NCBI GenBank assembly: GCA_943704415.1
Contig: CALSCO010001292.1
Span: 1-22,168 of the forward strand
Length of the DNA: 22,168 bases
Source of the DNA: Parvularia atlantis
Taxonomy: Eukaryota; Opisthokonta; Rotosphaerida
Reading direction: 5' to 3'
The notes beneath the pieces are model-generated. The model had not been told where the DNA came from and did not search any database. It saw nothing but the letters and a program-made list of their open reading frames with translations. Below, one piece after another: positions 5,727-22,046 of this stretch (positions are counted from its first letter, which is position 1; each line of letters opens with the position of its first letter). Position numbers and translations under genes: made by a program.

Positions 5727-7149
5727 ATGGCGCTCGAGCGTTGGGCGTCGCTCGTGCGGCTGCCGAGGGACCAGCGCGAGGGCGCCGTGGCCAAGGTGCC
5801 GCACGTCGGGGGCGCGGCGGCACGTCGCGGGGGGTGGAGTGCTGATGGTGGCGGCCCGCACAGCTCGCGCGCCTCGGCTTCTCGTTCCACGGCACCGCGG
5901 CCACCTCCGACGTGTTGCGCTGCCGCCACTGCGCCGCCGATGTGCGCGGCTTCGGCCCGACGGCGGCCGATGCGCGGCGCGCGGTGGCGGATCCGATGTG
6001 CGTCGTGGGCGGTGCGCGTTCTCGTGCGACGTGCGCTGACCCCCCTAGTTCGACAGCGCGCACCACCGCGCCGTCGCACCCGGCAGCGTGTGCCTCCTGC
6101 TCATGCTCGACGACGACGGCAGCCGGCGGCGCACATTCGACGCCGGGTGGCCGCACGTGACACCGACGGCGGCGGCAATGAGCGCGGCCGGCTTCGCGTT
6201 CATGCCGCGCCCGGGCGAGCCGGACTTTGTCTGGTGCGCCAAGTGCGACGTCGGGCTGGACGGATGGGAGCCGAGCGACGACCCGCGGTGCGGCGCCGCA
6301 TCCGCCTCCGATCGCGCGCGCGCTAACCGTGACCATGGCAACGCCCGTGCAGCGTCGAGCACGCCAAGCGCAAGCCCAACTGCGCCTTCCTGATCGCGTC
6401 GGCATCTGCGCCTGCGCCGTCGTCTCGTGGGCCGGCAGCATCTGCACCGGCATCTGCACCGGCACCGGCACCGACACCGGCAGAGCCAGCGACGGCGAGA
6501 CGCGGCCGCAAGCGCGCGGTCGAGGTGCCCGTGGAGCAGCCGGTCGAGGTGCCGCAGACGGCGCGCAAGCGGCCCACGCGGCGCGCGGCCGCGACGGAGG
6601 AGGAGGAGCCTGGGAGGACGGGGACGGTCGAGGCCGTTGAGCTGCCCAAGCCGACGCCGGCACGTCGCGGGCGAGCAGCAGCGGCATCGCGCGCACAGCC
6701 GACATCTGCGTCCGAGCCCGAGCCTGCGCATCAGCCTGAGCGTCAGCCTGCGCATCAGCCTGAGCGTCAGCTTGAGCGGACGACTGCGCGGCGCTCGAAA
6801 CCTGAGCCAGCAGCAAAATTGGAGCTTGCGCCCACTCCCGCAGCCGCCCCCGCAGCCGCCCCCGCAGCCGAGGCCGAGGCCGAGCCCGCGCCAGAGCCCG
6901 CGGTCGCCGCGCCAGTAGCGATCGAGTACTTGACACCGCAGGAGCAGCAGATGACCGTGCGCCAGTTCCTGACCAAGGTGCGCTGATCCTTGCGCCGTGG
7001 CACCCACCAACACACGTGCGACGCAGGAGGCGCACAGCATGATGGACGCGTTCGAGCGCGGCATGGCCGCCGACATGAAGGAGTTTGCCGACGCGGCCGC
7101 GCAGCACAGGCAATCGATCGAGCAGCTGCACAACGGGGCGGGTGCGTGA
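5727..7149 (+). CDS. Two-BIR-domain protein (Bir1/survivin-like)
   Basis: Five exons (5727-5795, 5864-5983, 6049-6287, 6353-6977, 7027-7149) give 391 residues. The second BIR domain (from about residue 89) is canonical: RRRTFDAGWP, then CAKC with sixteen residues to His and six to the last Cys, ending VEHAKRKPNCAFLI. The first BIR (about 24-80, LARLGFSFHG, CRHC) is divergent with wider spacing. A basic RRGRKR stretch (likely nuclear) and a long Pro/Ala/Glu-rich linker with PAHQPERQ repeats follow. The end (TPQEQQMTVRQFLT, then a helix) matches the layout of Bir1/survivin proteins, which act in the chromosomal passenger complex at centromeres. There is no RING, CARD or UBC domain, so a mitotic rather than ubiquitin-ligase role is inferred. 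The exon 2 donor is the least certain boundary. Confidence 0.8.
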
Positions 7150-12352: not shown

Positions 12353-14495
<2,143 letters not shown>

Positions 14496-14575: not shown

Positions 14576-16522
14576 TTAGGTCGCCAGCCCGGCCCCGCCC
14601 GTGCAGTACGAGTTCTTGATGAACTGGTGGCAGCACTTGTAGCCCCATCGCCCGTCGTCCCAGAACGAGCCCCAGACGCTCGTGTGGTTGTTCAGGTGCA
14701 CTGCGCGCGGTCGTGCGTCAGCGCAACGTTTTGCGCGGGCACGCCGGGCACCACGGCGCACCGTCCTCCTCGTACTTGGACCGCACCACCGTCTCCTCGT
14801 CGCCCTTGACCAGCTGCCCCGTGCGCGAGTACTCGACATAGCGTTCCGACTGCGCAAACAGCAGCTCCTTTGGCAGCGACTCGAGGTGCTCGGCGCCGCC
14901 GTACTTTTGCAAGATCGTGTCCTTGGTCGACTCCTGCGCAGCGCGCGCGCGCGCGCGTGAGCGGGCGGAGATGAGGGCGCGCAAGGCTGCCGGCGGACCG
15001 TCATCTTGGCCTTCTTCGACTGGTACTGCTTGGCGAGCATCTCGGCCTGCGTCGGGTCGGCCTGCGAGCGCGTGCGACGCGAATGAGCGCTCGCCCGCGC
15101 CATGCACACACGCGCGGGCACCTGCAGATTCACTTCCGTGCCGCGGTCGTGCGCCTGCCACACAAACATCTGCATCTCGGCCATCTTCTTCGTGTCGCCC
15201 GAGAAGCGCACAAAGTTGTCGCCTGCGCCACGACGTCAGCCAGAGCCAAAGCACGCGAGGGCGCGTGGGCGCACCGGCGTAGGTCAGCTCGTTCGGGTCG
15301 ACCTCCTTGTTCGGGTTGTCGCGCATCGAGCGCGTCTTGGGGTCATAGTGGGCCGAGTTGACGTCGAGGTTGCGCAGGTACTTGGCCGTGTCCTCGCGGA
15401 TGCTGTGTGCGCGGTGCGCGTGAGTGCACAGTGTGTGCGCAGCGCGTGCGTGACGTACCGCAGGTTGCGCACGGTCACGCGCGTCTTCGTGTCGACCTTC
15501 TGGCCGGCCATGTCGGCCTCGTCGGCGTACTTGTCTTCGTCCCCGTTCGCGGCCTCGTCGTCGTCGTCGGGCGCGCCGTCCGTCTTCTCCTCGCCCTCCT
15601 CGCCCTCCTTGCGTTTTTTCCTGCGCGTCCACGCGGCCTGAGCGACCACGCCGTGACCGGCAACGACGACGCACCCGCGCAGCTTCTCGTCGAGCTCGGC
15701 CTGGCGGATCTGCTTGCGCCGCTCCTCGACCTTCTCCCACTCGGCGATGTGCTTCATGTACTCCTCCGGGCTGTAGCCGTTCCACCGGTCGCGCTTGCCC
15801 TCGAACGACAGGTCGAAGCTCTCGACGATCTCGTCCGGCTGGATGTCCTTCCCGGTGATCTTGGCGCCGAGCTTGCGCGGCCGTTCGACGCAATCCTGCG
15901 CCGCACATGAGCTGCGTGCACAGCGCGCGCGCTCGACGCGTGCCTTGGCCTTGTGCGTCATGCTGCCGCAGTTTTCGCACGCGCCCTTGCGGAACTTGGT
16001 CACGGCCTTGTCCTGCGCGTCCTGCGCGTCACACATCCGCCCCCGTCGTCACAGGCACCAGCCGCATCGGCACCTGCACGACGCCGCGGTGGTACCACTC
16101 GTTCGAGTACTCCTTCTGGTTGAGCGACGAGTGCTGGTGCGTCAGCGTCGACATGCCCTGGTCCATGTACCCTGCGCGCATCGCCGTCAGCGCCACCACG
16201 CGAACGACGCACGGCGCACAGCGCACGCACACGGCGTCTTGGAGATATACTGCGGGATGTGCGGGTTGATCTCCTTGCCCGTCACCGCGTCGACCTCGGC
16301 GGGCGCCGTGCCGGCCTTTGCTCGCGCACGTGCTCAGCGGCGTCCGCACGGCGCCAGAGCGCGCGCACGCACCTTGCGCGCCGCGTCCAGGTCCTTGGCC
16401 TGCCGCGCCTCCTCGCGCGTCATCTTGGTGTCTGCACCGCGCGTGAGCGGCGCGTGAGCCGCGAGAGAGAGAGAGCCGACAGGCGCTTTGCCGCGGCGCG
16501 CACTGCTTCGCGATGATGCCAT
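14576..16522 (-). CDS. SLU7: Pre-mRNA-splicing factor SLU7
   Basis: SLU7 acts in the spliceosome in the second catalytic step, helping choose the 3' splice site. Twelve exons (16504-16522, 16373-16431, 16231-16315, 16074-16171, 15944-16012, 15675-15895, 15459-15620, 15275-15402, 15122-15222, 14999-15061, 14762-14933, 14576-14700) give 433 residues. Family blocks are clear: [27 protein letters not shown], the CCHC zinc knuckle [14 protein letters not shown] at about 99-112, [39 protein letters not shown], and the end [15 protein letters not shown]. The protein stops soon after that block, lacking the Lys-rich tail of animal SLU7. A second in-frame ATG at 16555 would put the start 3 bases after the upstream gene's stop. 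Intron 5 needs a GC donor; intron 4 has two CAG acceptors nine bases apart. Confidence 0.95.
14941..14957. repeat. Alternating (GC)8 tract
   Basis: Pure GC alternation, a sequence able to take the Z-DNA form, lies inside intron 10 of SLU7, immediately before its acceptor on the minus strand. Confidence 0.9.
15896..15943 (-). other. GC-AG intron 5 of SLU7
   Basis: The zinc knuckle spacing C-x2-C-x4-H-x4-C is only kept if the exon ends at AAG and the intron begins GCACGC. The nearest GT (six bases further) would add Ala-Arg inside the knuckle. The intron is 48 bases and ends GCGCAG. Confidence 0.8.
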
Positions 16523-19146: not shown

Positions 19147-21423
19147 ATGTACGGGCGCGTGGACCGCGGCGGGAGCCGCGAGGGCAAAAAGTCGCTGCGC
19201 AAGAACAAGGTGCGCTACGCGTCCCGTGCGCCGCGATGCAGCCCGCTCACGGCACGGCGCTTGCAAGGTGTTCGTGCACGTCGTCAAGACCAAGCACGAG
19301 CAGTGGCTCGCGAACCAGAACCGGCCGGCCGAGGCCGTCGTCTCGGCGCGTGCGTCCGCGCTGCCGATGCGCGAGAGATGCCGCTGACGATGGCGTGATC
19401 GCAGCCGCGCCGCCGCTCCGGCCGCTCGCCGAGGCGCCGCAGGGGACACCTGCGCTTGTCGACGCGTTCTGCAACCTCGTGAGGCGCGTGCGCATCGGCT
19501 GGCCGGGACGTGAGCAAGCGGGCTGATCGCGCGCACGTCGCGCGCCAGCCGCAAGCTGAGCGAGGACCTGGACCGCGTGGTCCGGCGCGCGCACCAGGCC
19601 GGCGTGCAGGCGCTGATCACGCAGTCGCCCGACGCCGAGAAGCAGGAGGCGCTGCTCGAGGTCGCCGGGCAGTTTCTCGACGGTGCGCGCGTCAGATGGA
19701 GACAGACAGACAGCAGCGACGCTGAGACGCGCGCTATGCGGTGGCACGCAGGCCAGGTGCTGTGCATCGTCGGCGTGCACCCGGACAACACCAAGAAGAC
19801 GCACGACGCCAAGGCGATCGCGCAGCGCGTGGCCTCGCTCCGCACGCTCGCGCTCAAGCCGCAGACGGTGTGTGTGGTAGATGCTTGTGCGTCTGACACA
19901 GGCTCACCGCGTACGCCGGCCGCAGGTCGCCATCTCGGCCGGCATCGACCTCCAGCGCGACATCTCGACGCACTTCCCGCAGGAGAAGCTGCTGCAGGCG
20001 CTGGTAGAGCTTGCGGGCTCGGTGCAGCTGCCGCTCGTGCTGTCGGCGCAGGGCGGGTCGGCGATGGCCGAGCGCATCATCAGCAACGTGCGCCGCCGAC
20101 GTGCAGACGCACCCGACGCTGACACGCGCTCGGCAGGTGCGCGAGGGCGCCGTCGGCCGCATCGCGCTCGTGCACTTTGGCGGGATGCCCGCGGACCTGC
20201 TGCGCGTGCGCGAGGAGCTGGGCGACGTGGACGGTGTTGCGGACGAGGACGGCAAGGGCGCTGATGAGCCGGCTGCGGAGCAGGGCGACGACGCGGGCGA
20301 GGGCGACGACGGCGAGGGTGACAGCGACGGCGGCGTGCAGGTGCAAGGGGCGCGCGACATGCGAGGCCCATCCTCAGCCGTGCGCCATGCACAGGTGTAC
20401 TACGTTGTCACGGGCGCGCTGTGCGACCAGACCGAGCTCGGCGAGGCCGAGAAGGCGCTCGCGCTGTCGATGCCGCTGCAACGGCTGCTGCTCGCGTCCG
20501 ACAGGTCTGTGCGGGCGCGACGCCCGCTGCCTTGCTGACAGGGAGCCGTCGCCCAGCCCGCACTACACGCCGCAGACCATCCCGGACCCGTGGATCCGCG
20601 AGAACCGCAACGAGCCGTCGACGCTGCCGTTTGTACTCAAGCAGCTGGTGCGTGGCGCGCCTTTGCGGCACGTCGGCACGCTCACGCGCAGCGCAGGCGA
20701 GCCTGCTGCAGATGGCCGACGAGGGTGCCCTAGCCGCGCAGCTGCACAGCAACACGCAGCGCTTCTTCGGCCTTACTGTAGGCGTGCAGGACGCGTCTGC
20801 TGCCGCCCCCGCTGCCGCCTCGCCTGCAGCGAGCTCGTCTGCGTCACGGACAGCATCCACCGCCGAGGCTGCGAGCACGCCGTCTGACGATACAACCGGC
20901 AAGGCCAAGGCGAGCAAGGCGTCACCCGCGCCGGCGCCCGCGCCCACACCCGCACCGGCCGAGGGCAAGGGCAAGGCAGGCGCCGCCGCGACACGGCCGA
21001 GCAAGGACCGCAAGCCGGTGTGCCCGTGCTTTCTGCCCTTGCGCGCGCGCGTGCGACCGACAATCGCGCAGGTCGAGCGGCCCAAGCCGCAGAGCGAGTC
21101 GCCCGAGCCGGCAGCCCGGGTGCCGTCGCCAGTCGCAGAGCCGTCGCCGTCGCCTGCACCAGTACCGCAGCAGGTGCAGTACGCGTGCAAGCGGTGCCGG
21201 TTCGTGCTGCATACGGCGGCCGAGCAGATCCCGCACCACCGGCTGCTGCGTACGTCGCGCGCATGCCCGTGTCGCTTGCCACCTCACAAGTGCGCGTGCA
21301 GATGCCAAGGACGACGGCGTGTCGTGCCAGACGCTGTTTTTCACGCGGCCGACGTGGCTCGCGCACGACAGCAGCGAGGCGCGCGACGGCGGCGACGGTG
21401 ACGGTGACGGCGACGAGGGTGCG

Positions 21424-21456
<33 letters not shown>

Positions 21457-22046
21457 GACGAGGCCGACGACGGGGCGCTCGGCGACGACGAGGGCAAGCT
21501 TGCCTGCCCCAAGTGCGCCGCGCGGCTCGGGCGGTACCGCTTGGTGGGGTCGGCGCCGGTCGAGTGCTCGTGCGGCGCGCAAAAGCCGCCGCCGGCGTTT
21601 GCCTACGCCAAGAAGCGTCTCGGTGCGTCTGTGCGGCTGCTCGCCGTGCACAGCGCGCCGCTGATTGCGCCGTCGCCGCAGATGTCGTGCTGCCGATCGA
21701 GGACGCGCGCGCCGCGATGGTCTCGTTGCGGCTGCAGGACGAGACGCGGCAGGCCGAGGCGGCGAGCGACGACGAGGTGTGTATCGTGGCCGCCCCACTG
21801 CGATCTGACCGGAAGAGCGCAGGACGCGGGCGCGAGCAAGAAGAAGAAGCGGCAGAAGAAGCAGAAGAAGACGAACGCGGCCAACTTCTCGAGCTTCCGG
21901 TGCGTCGCCCGCTCCCACCCCTGCACGTGGCTGCGATCGTCCCTCGTGACGCGGAAGCCGGCCGCAGGAACAAGTCGTACGGCGTGAAGACGCCGACGGC
22001 GAAGAAGGCCGAGGCCGCGGAGGCATCGGGCGACGACGACGCATGA
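19147..22046 (+). CDS. TatD-like domain fused to YVH1/DUSP12-type zinc domain
   Basis: Fifteen exons (19147-19209, 19268-19349, 19405-19483, 19549-19682, 19752-19867, 19926-20087, 20137-20340, 20395-20508, 20546-20647, 20697-21017, 21072-21249, 21302-21622, 21682-21776, 21823-21899, 21968-22046) give 708 residues. About 66-385 is a TatD-family barrel (LVDAFCNL, IVGVHPDN, ALVHFGG, LLLASD, SPHYTP) with an acidic insert; a Pro/Ala/Lys linker follows; about 498-626 is the zinc domain known from YVH1/DUSP12 (CKRCRFVL, SCQTLFF, GKLACPKCAARLG, ECSCG, PAFAYAKKRLD), carrying a ten-Asp loop; the tail is Lys-rich (likely nuclear or nucleolar). There is no phosphatase domain. The linker exons stay in one open frame, which supports a true fusion. 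TatD metal-binding residues are partly missing. The exon 3/4 junction (GC-AG, or GT with an AAG acceptor) is unresolved. In YVH1 this zinc domain serves 60S ribosome maturation. Confidence 0.8.
20509..20545 (+). other. 37-nt intron in the TatD/zinc gene
   Basis: Between the conserved LLLASD strand and SPHYTP the frame requires removal of 37 bases. Two registers fit: 20509-20545 (donor GTGCGG) or 20505-20541 (donor GTCTGT). Either way the CTGAC branch site lies only 2-7 bases from the final AG. Confidence 0.7.

Follow-up and report, generated by a model that had tools for sequence, protein, structure and literature searches.

A conserved eukaryotic protein family joining a TatD-like barrel that has lost catalytic acids to a YVH1-type zinc domain, represented by a gene of Parvularia atlantis

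A 22,168 nt stretch of the genome of Parvularia atlantis (GenBank contig CALSCO010001292.1; the whole stretch is here called the window) carries on its forward strand, within 19147–22046, a gene in which a TatD domain and a YVH1/DUSP12-type zinc domain lie in frame with each other. The architecture is conserved in relatives, the catalytic residues of the barrel have been lost, and the genome holds a separate YVH1 as well as other TatDs. We put at about even the chance that the gene belongs to an apparently undescribed, widely scattered eukaryotic family working as a non-catalytic adaptor on nucleic acid or ribonucleoprotein. Its members apparently have a conserved basic motif at the N-terminus, followed by a TatD barrel of class-I-like type from which catalytic acids have been lost; a disordered linker connects this barrel to the YVH1-type zinc domain, and a Lys-rich tail with an FRNK motif comes last. 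If this is true, a green alga and an amoeba, far apart from each other, keep a protein with a nearly identical N-terminus in which a DNA-repair nuclease that has been disabled is combined with a zinc domain of ribosome assembly. The protein would then be a conserved pseudo-nuclease, and the YVH1 zinc domain would not be restricted to YVH1.

An earlier note on this DNA, made from the sequence alone, had placed both domains in one gene, and homology searches bear this out. A Pfam search with the first version of the gene model (704 aa) gave TatD_DNase (E 1.7e-21) as the sole domain of the protein, which thus matches the TatD profile, and found no dual-specificity phosphatase domain upstream of the zinc part, as the earlier note had also stated. 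Used as a single sequence the protein retrieved TatD enzymes from the PDB (best 8.7e-13), with YVH1 at a non-significant 0.43, while a profile of six zinc domains of the family matched residues 231–342 of yeast YVH1 at E 5.8e-13, the next best chain being at 0.011. YVH1 was absent among the 50 Foldseek and 50 VIA matches listed, which concern the barrel and are silent on the zinc part. A reverse search, starting from the zinc domain of the YVH1 encoded in this genome, matched, of all candidates scored, just its own locus and the window (E 0.001 for the latter). One frame is stop-free over 20322–21398; it encodes the C-terminus of TatD (from 20697), then the linker, and reaches the first cysteines of the zinc domain. 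Such long runs are frequent in this GC-rich window (68.8% GC), where the six frames contain 47 stop-free runs of at least 606 nt against a mean of 12.7 (range 6–21) in 30 mononucleotide shuffles, and the stop-free frame is for this reason weak evidence for a fusion. The fusion is settled by homology, namely the TatD_DNase match, the zinc profile leading to yeast YVH1 and the relatives. The open frame is not relied on.

Relatives were collected in three protein searches, each of which scored only the ~8000 candidates with most shared words, so that the absence of a sequence means little. Fifteen relatives were found apart from P0016, a bacterial TatD that was excluded from the family counts and used as outgroup (this 469 aa protein from an Ignavibacteria metagenome-assembled genome is a TatD-radical SAM fusion and retains all seven active-site residues tabulated). 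They include Chlamydomonas eustigma (Chlorophyta), Pelomyxa schiedti (Amoebozoa) and three EukProt entries. TatD and at least the first zinc cysteines are found in one predicted protein in 12 of the 15 (P0001, P0002, P0004–P0006, P0008–P0014); P0003, P0007 and P0015 stop short of the zinc domain. Two of the zinc-bearing fusions, P0004 and P0005, have transcript-assembly names with 'ORF type:complete' (the P0005 label as far as listed). The entries of Chlamydomonas eustigma (CEUSTIGMA_g4962) and Pelomyxa schiedti ('hydrolase TatD') share family and architecture with the window protein, and the names listed for them speak only of TatD or a hypothetical protein and leave the zinc domain unmentioned.

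Conserved regions were also found at both ends of the protein, DRGGSREGKKSLRKNK at the N-terminus and NFSSFRNK at the C-terminus. The motif DR(G/S)G(S/A/G)REGKKSLR(K/S)NK is present in nine of the ten members having an N-terminus (the window protein and 9/15 relatives) and occurs as a variant in P0014, and the tail motif, FRNK or YRNK following a Lys-rich run, is shared by the window protein and 6/15 relatives (P0004, P0005, P0006, P0011, P0012, P0014), the remaining nine diverging or ending ahead of it. No PDB sequence match was found for either terminus, the short queries making this a weak test. That the alga and the amoebozoan have domain order and N-terminus in common suggests an old protein, and the TatD-zinc protein may have spread horizontally; scans with one short pattern each, a weak probe, revealed no relative in 14 viral_contigs stretches (for a viral source) or in 61 genome_contigs stretches (for a prokaryotic source).

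Compared with TatD and TATDN1 (class I, PF01026), the family lacks the equivalents of E91 and E201 (E. coli numbering) in all 16 sequences, that is the window protein and 15/15 relatives, mostly lacks H127, has Asp instead of H64 in 15/16, and adds long N- and C-terminal extensions together with the zinc domain. D203 is kept in the window and in 13/16 overall (lost in 3/16), H62 is retained in 15/16 and the DNA-binding arginine R98 is invariant (16/16). In strand 1, where class I enzymes have (G/A)xN and class II enzymes HxH, the window protein reads DAFCNL, with Asn retained and Phe in place of Gly/Ala, and GxN is found in P0004, P0008, P0012 and P0015. The label 'nuclease' is doubtful because E91 and E201 are absent throughout; E91A, E201A and D203A are each reported to abolish the activity of E. 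coli TatD (PMC4176340), and by its residues the window protein is probably a pseudo-nuclease. An argument that the barrel is dead since HxH is lost was dropped, as class I TatDs, that of E. coli among them, are described as lacking HxH too.

The zinc domain of the window protein has all eight ligand positions (C232, C235, H248, C280, C307, C310, C324 and C326 in yeast numbering; seven Cys and one His) and resembles that of YVH1/DUSP12 in its C-terminal location and identical ligand order, whereas the protein as a whole differs by the absence of a phosphatase, the replacement of F283 and W329 and the extra N-terminal motif and FRNK tail. At the F283 site, which is Phe in yeast and own-genome YVH1, L, I, M or H was found in 11/11 readable family rows; Leu stands exactly at this site in the window, P0005, P0011 and P0013, each of these four having its neighbouring Cys and Trp at the distances seen in yeast, and the other seven have I, M or H. 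The W329 site, Trp in both YVH1s, is occupied by Q, R, M, E, V or T in 6/6 readable rows (Gln in the window), while yeast F260 and R269 are uninformative, the loop being short in the own-genome YVH1 as well. In yeast Yvh1, W329 is described as stacking on G1242 of H43 (P-stalk RNA), R269 on H89 and F260 on the sarcin-ricin loop (PMC6393466), and F283L as abolishing Mrt4 removal and being dominant-negative (PMC9404827). Because F283 and W329 are replaced, the label of a YVH1-like ribosome factor is doubtful; these residues do not support a role at the P stalk like that of YVH1, and the domain may bind elsewhere.

The earlier note had asked whether a normal YVH1 exists in the genome, and one is present on contig C284, with the phosphatase motif HCAAGVSRSAS and a zinc domain; its modelled part of 274 aa (first exons excluded) finds YVH1 in the PDB at 6.5e-31. 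Two further TatDs occur in the same genome, and Ribosomal_L10 matches on two contigs are, as expected, candidates for P0 and an Mrt4-like protein, not told apart. With this phosphatase-bearing YVH1 in place, the explanation of the gene as a YVH1 that lost its phosphatase was rejected, and the suggestion that a TatD barrel had taken the place of the phosphatase does not hold, nothing having been swapped. The proposed new link between a nuclease fold and the ribosome is weakened by the missing E91/E201 and the replaced F283/W329; to judge from these positions a ribosome link is possible but is argued against in its simplest form. The pairing, presented in the earlier note as not known from either family, was indeed not found in the open-licence literature searched: TatD with YVH1, TatD as a pseudoenzyme or 'catalytically inactive' 'TatD DNase', and fusions of TatD to a zinc finger domain in ribosome biogenesis gave nothing, and articles mentioning TatD with DUSP12, or 'TatD DNase' with ribosome biogenesis, were by title on other matters only. 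The domain architecture is conserved and new to that literature, and in presenting a local oddity the earlier view was too narrow, since the domain searches on relatives that it suggested returned both domains together in most of them.

In the adaptor reading the barrel would have stopped cutting but, R98 being invariant, would still bind nucleic acid or some ligand like it, and docking on RNA or ribonucleoprotein would fall to the zinc domain together with the basic ends. The whole protein would act as an adaptor without catalysis, perhaps in the assembly of ribosomes but not by the Mrt4-release chemistry of YVH1. A more specific version, to which we give little likelihood, is an ancient overlooked ribonucleoprotein factor whose dead TatD would bind RNA near the P stalk or elsewhere via the zinc domain, competing with or checking YVH1 in large-subunit maturation.

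Several observations weigh against a non-catalytic adaptor of this kind. The E91 site is never Gln or Glu in the family, yet it is Asp in P0007, and the gaps near E91 and H152 depend on the alignment. R129 and R219, further basic residues assigned to DNA binding in E. coli TatD (PMC4176340), are unconserved, which speaks against unchanged DNA binding. The H127A and H152A forms of E. coli TatD are reported to stay active (PMC4176340), as are D222A and E220A of human TATDN1, with E112Q more active still, and according to its authors every TATDN1 active-site mutant retained some activity (PMC10085689). All eight zinc ligands are aligned in 5/12 family rows, the window included; the third Cys is shifted one place in P0014 and missing in P0004, P0008–P0010 and P0012, the last of which is also without the His ligand, and the last Cys pair is missing, or the row ends earlier, in six rows (P0004, P0008–P0010, P0012, P0013). 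P0007, transcript-derived and labelled 'complete', has no zinc domain, its sequence being unrelated from near the barrel end, as after a frame shift. TatD and zinc distances are weakly correlated (Spearman 0.38, Mantel p 0.03, 12 sequences), and with P0008–P0010, near kin of P0004, removed the correlation is 0.13 (p 0.30, 9 sequences).

Among other explanations, a ribosome-maturation factor using its zinc domain at the P stalk in the manner of YVH1, with the TatD barrel replacing the phosphatase, is doubtful. The zinc domain is homologous with every ligand position occupied in the window, yeast Mrt4 release is reported to reside in the Yvh1 zinc domain and not in the phosphatase (PMC9404827), and the basic N- and C-terminal stretches would fit a ribosomal partner; however, Phe or Tyr is found at the F283 site in 0/11 and Trp at the W329 site in 0/6, both residues being present in yeast and own-genome YVH1, and a YVH1 with phosphatase already exists in the genome. 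The same two sites bear on the idea of a natural YVH1 competitor that would occupy the pre-60S site without Mrt4 release. This would agree with Leu at the F283 site in the window and three relatives, given the dominant-negative F283L of yeast (PMC9404827), but I, M or H in the seven other readable members does not fit, the loss of W329 would weaken P-stalk RNA binding too, and we regard it as very unlikely.

An active nuclease with an altered site (e.g. H62, Asp at 64 and D203), tethered by the zinc domain to RNA or ribosomes, seems to us unlikely. The conservation of a changed pocket, made up of these three and R98, suggests use, and TATDN1 is described as withstanding several active-site changes (PMC10085689), but the acids missing in the whole family, and D203 missing in three sequences, are those whose single replacement by Ala inactivates E. 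coli TatD (PMC4176340). That two adjacent genes were misread as one is highly improbable and was rejected on the evidence of the relatives, despite P0007 with its transcript-derived sequence lacking the zinc domain: open frames come cheap at the GC content of the window and the gene model is without RNA support, but the 12 relatives with both parts in one protein belong to separate records, and two of these bear the names of transcript assemblies.

The splice model was made from frame translations and manual GT-AG splicing, from the ATG at 19147 to a stop codon whose last base is 22046, RNA not being its source, and its limits are exactly those of the earlier note (Table 1). The acceptor of intron 8 was shifted to 20556 following comparison with relatives, and that of intron 3 (19555) is uncertain, ~4 extra residues being retained there by relatives.

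Table 1. Features of the TatD-zinc gene in the window
Feature	Position	Strand	Details and basis
Whole gene	19147..22046	+	15 exons, 14 GT-AG introns of 46–77 nt, 699 aa + stop; own splice model, aligned against relatives
Exon 1, conserved N-terminal motif MYGRVDRGGSREGKKSLRKNK	19147..19209	+	family alignments
TatD-like TIM-barrel, exons 3–10, lacking counterparts of E. coli E91, H127 and E201	19455..20774	+	
Low-complexity Ala/Pro/Lys linker, variable among relatives, contains intron 21018–21071	20775..21176	+	alignments
YVH1/DUSP12-type zinc domain: C-x2-C, H, C, C-x2-C, C-x-C and poly-Asp loop	21177..21690	+	profile match, ligand table
C-terminal Lys-rich stretch and NFSSFRNKSYG motif spanning intron 21900–21967	21823..21988	+	alignments

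The intron donors in 19210–21967 start with GTG in 12/14 cases. The frames of P0001 and P0002 read through most of the intron sites of the window, which would imply fewer introns there if these proteins were called without splicing.

The window is part of contig C323; the genome comprises 616 contigs totalling 16.25 Mb. Elsewhere in the window, a TnpB/Fanzor-type remnant was found at 3–251 on the forward strand (Cas12f1-like_TNB, E 8.1e-07), the last part of its zinc finger being in a different frame, and a BIR-like stretch with a Pro/Ala-rich tail behind it was seen by eye, with no profile, at ~5870–6360 on the same strand. A weak ADH_zinc_N match at 13175–14368, also on the forward strand, reached E 4.4e-07 and 30.3 bits against a curated cut-off of 31.8, and part of a gene for the splicing factor Slu7 was identified at 14721–16028 on the reverse strand (Pfam Slu7, E 3.3e-37).
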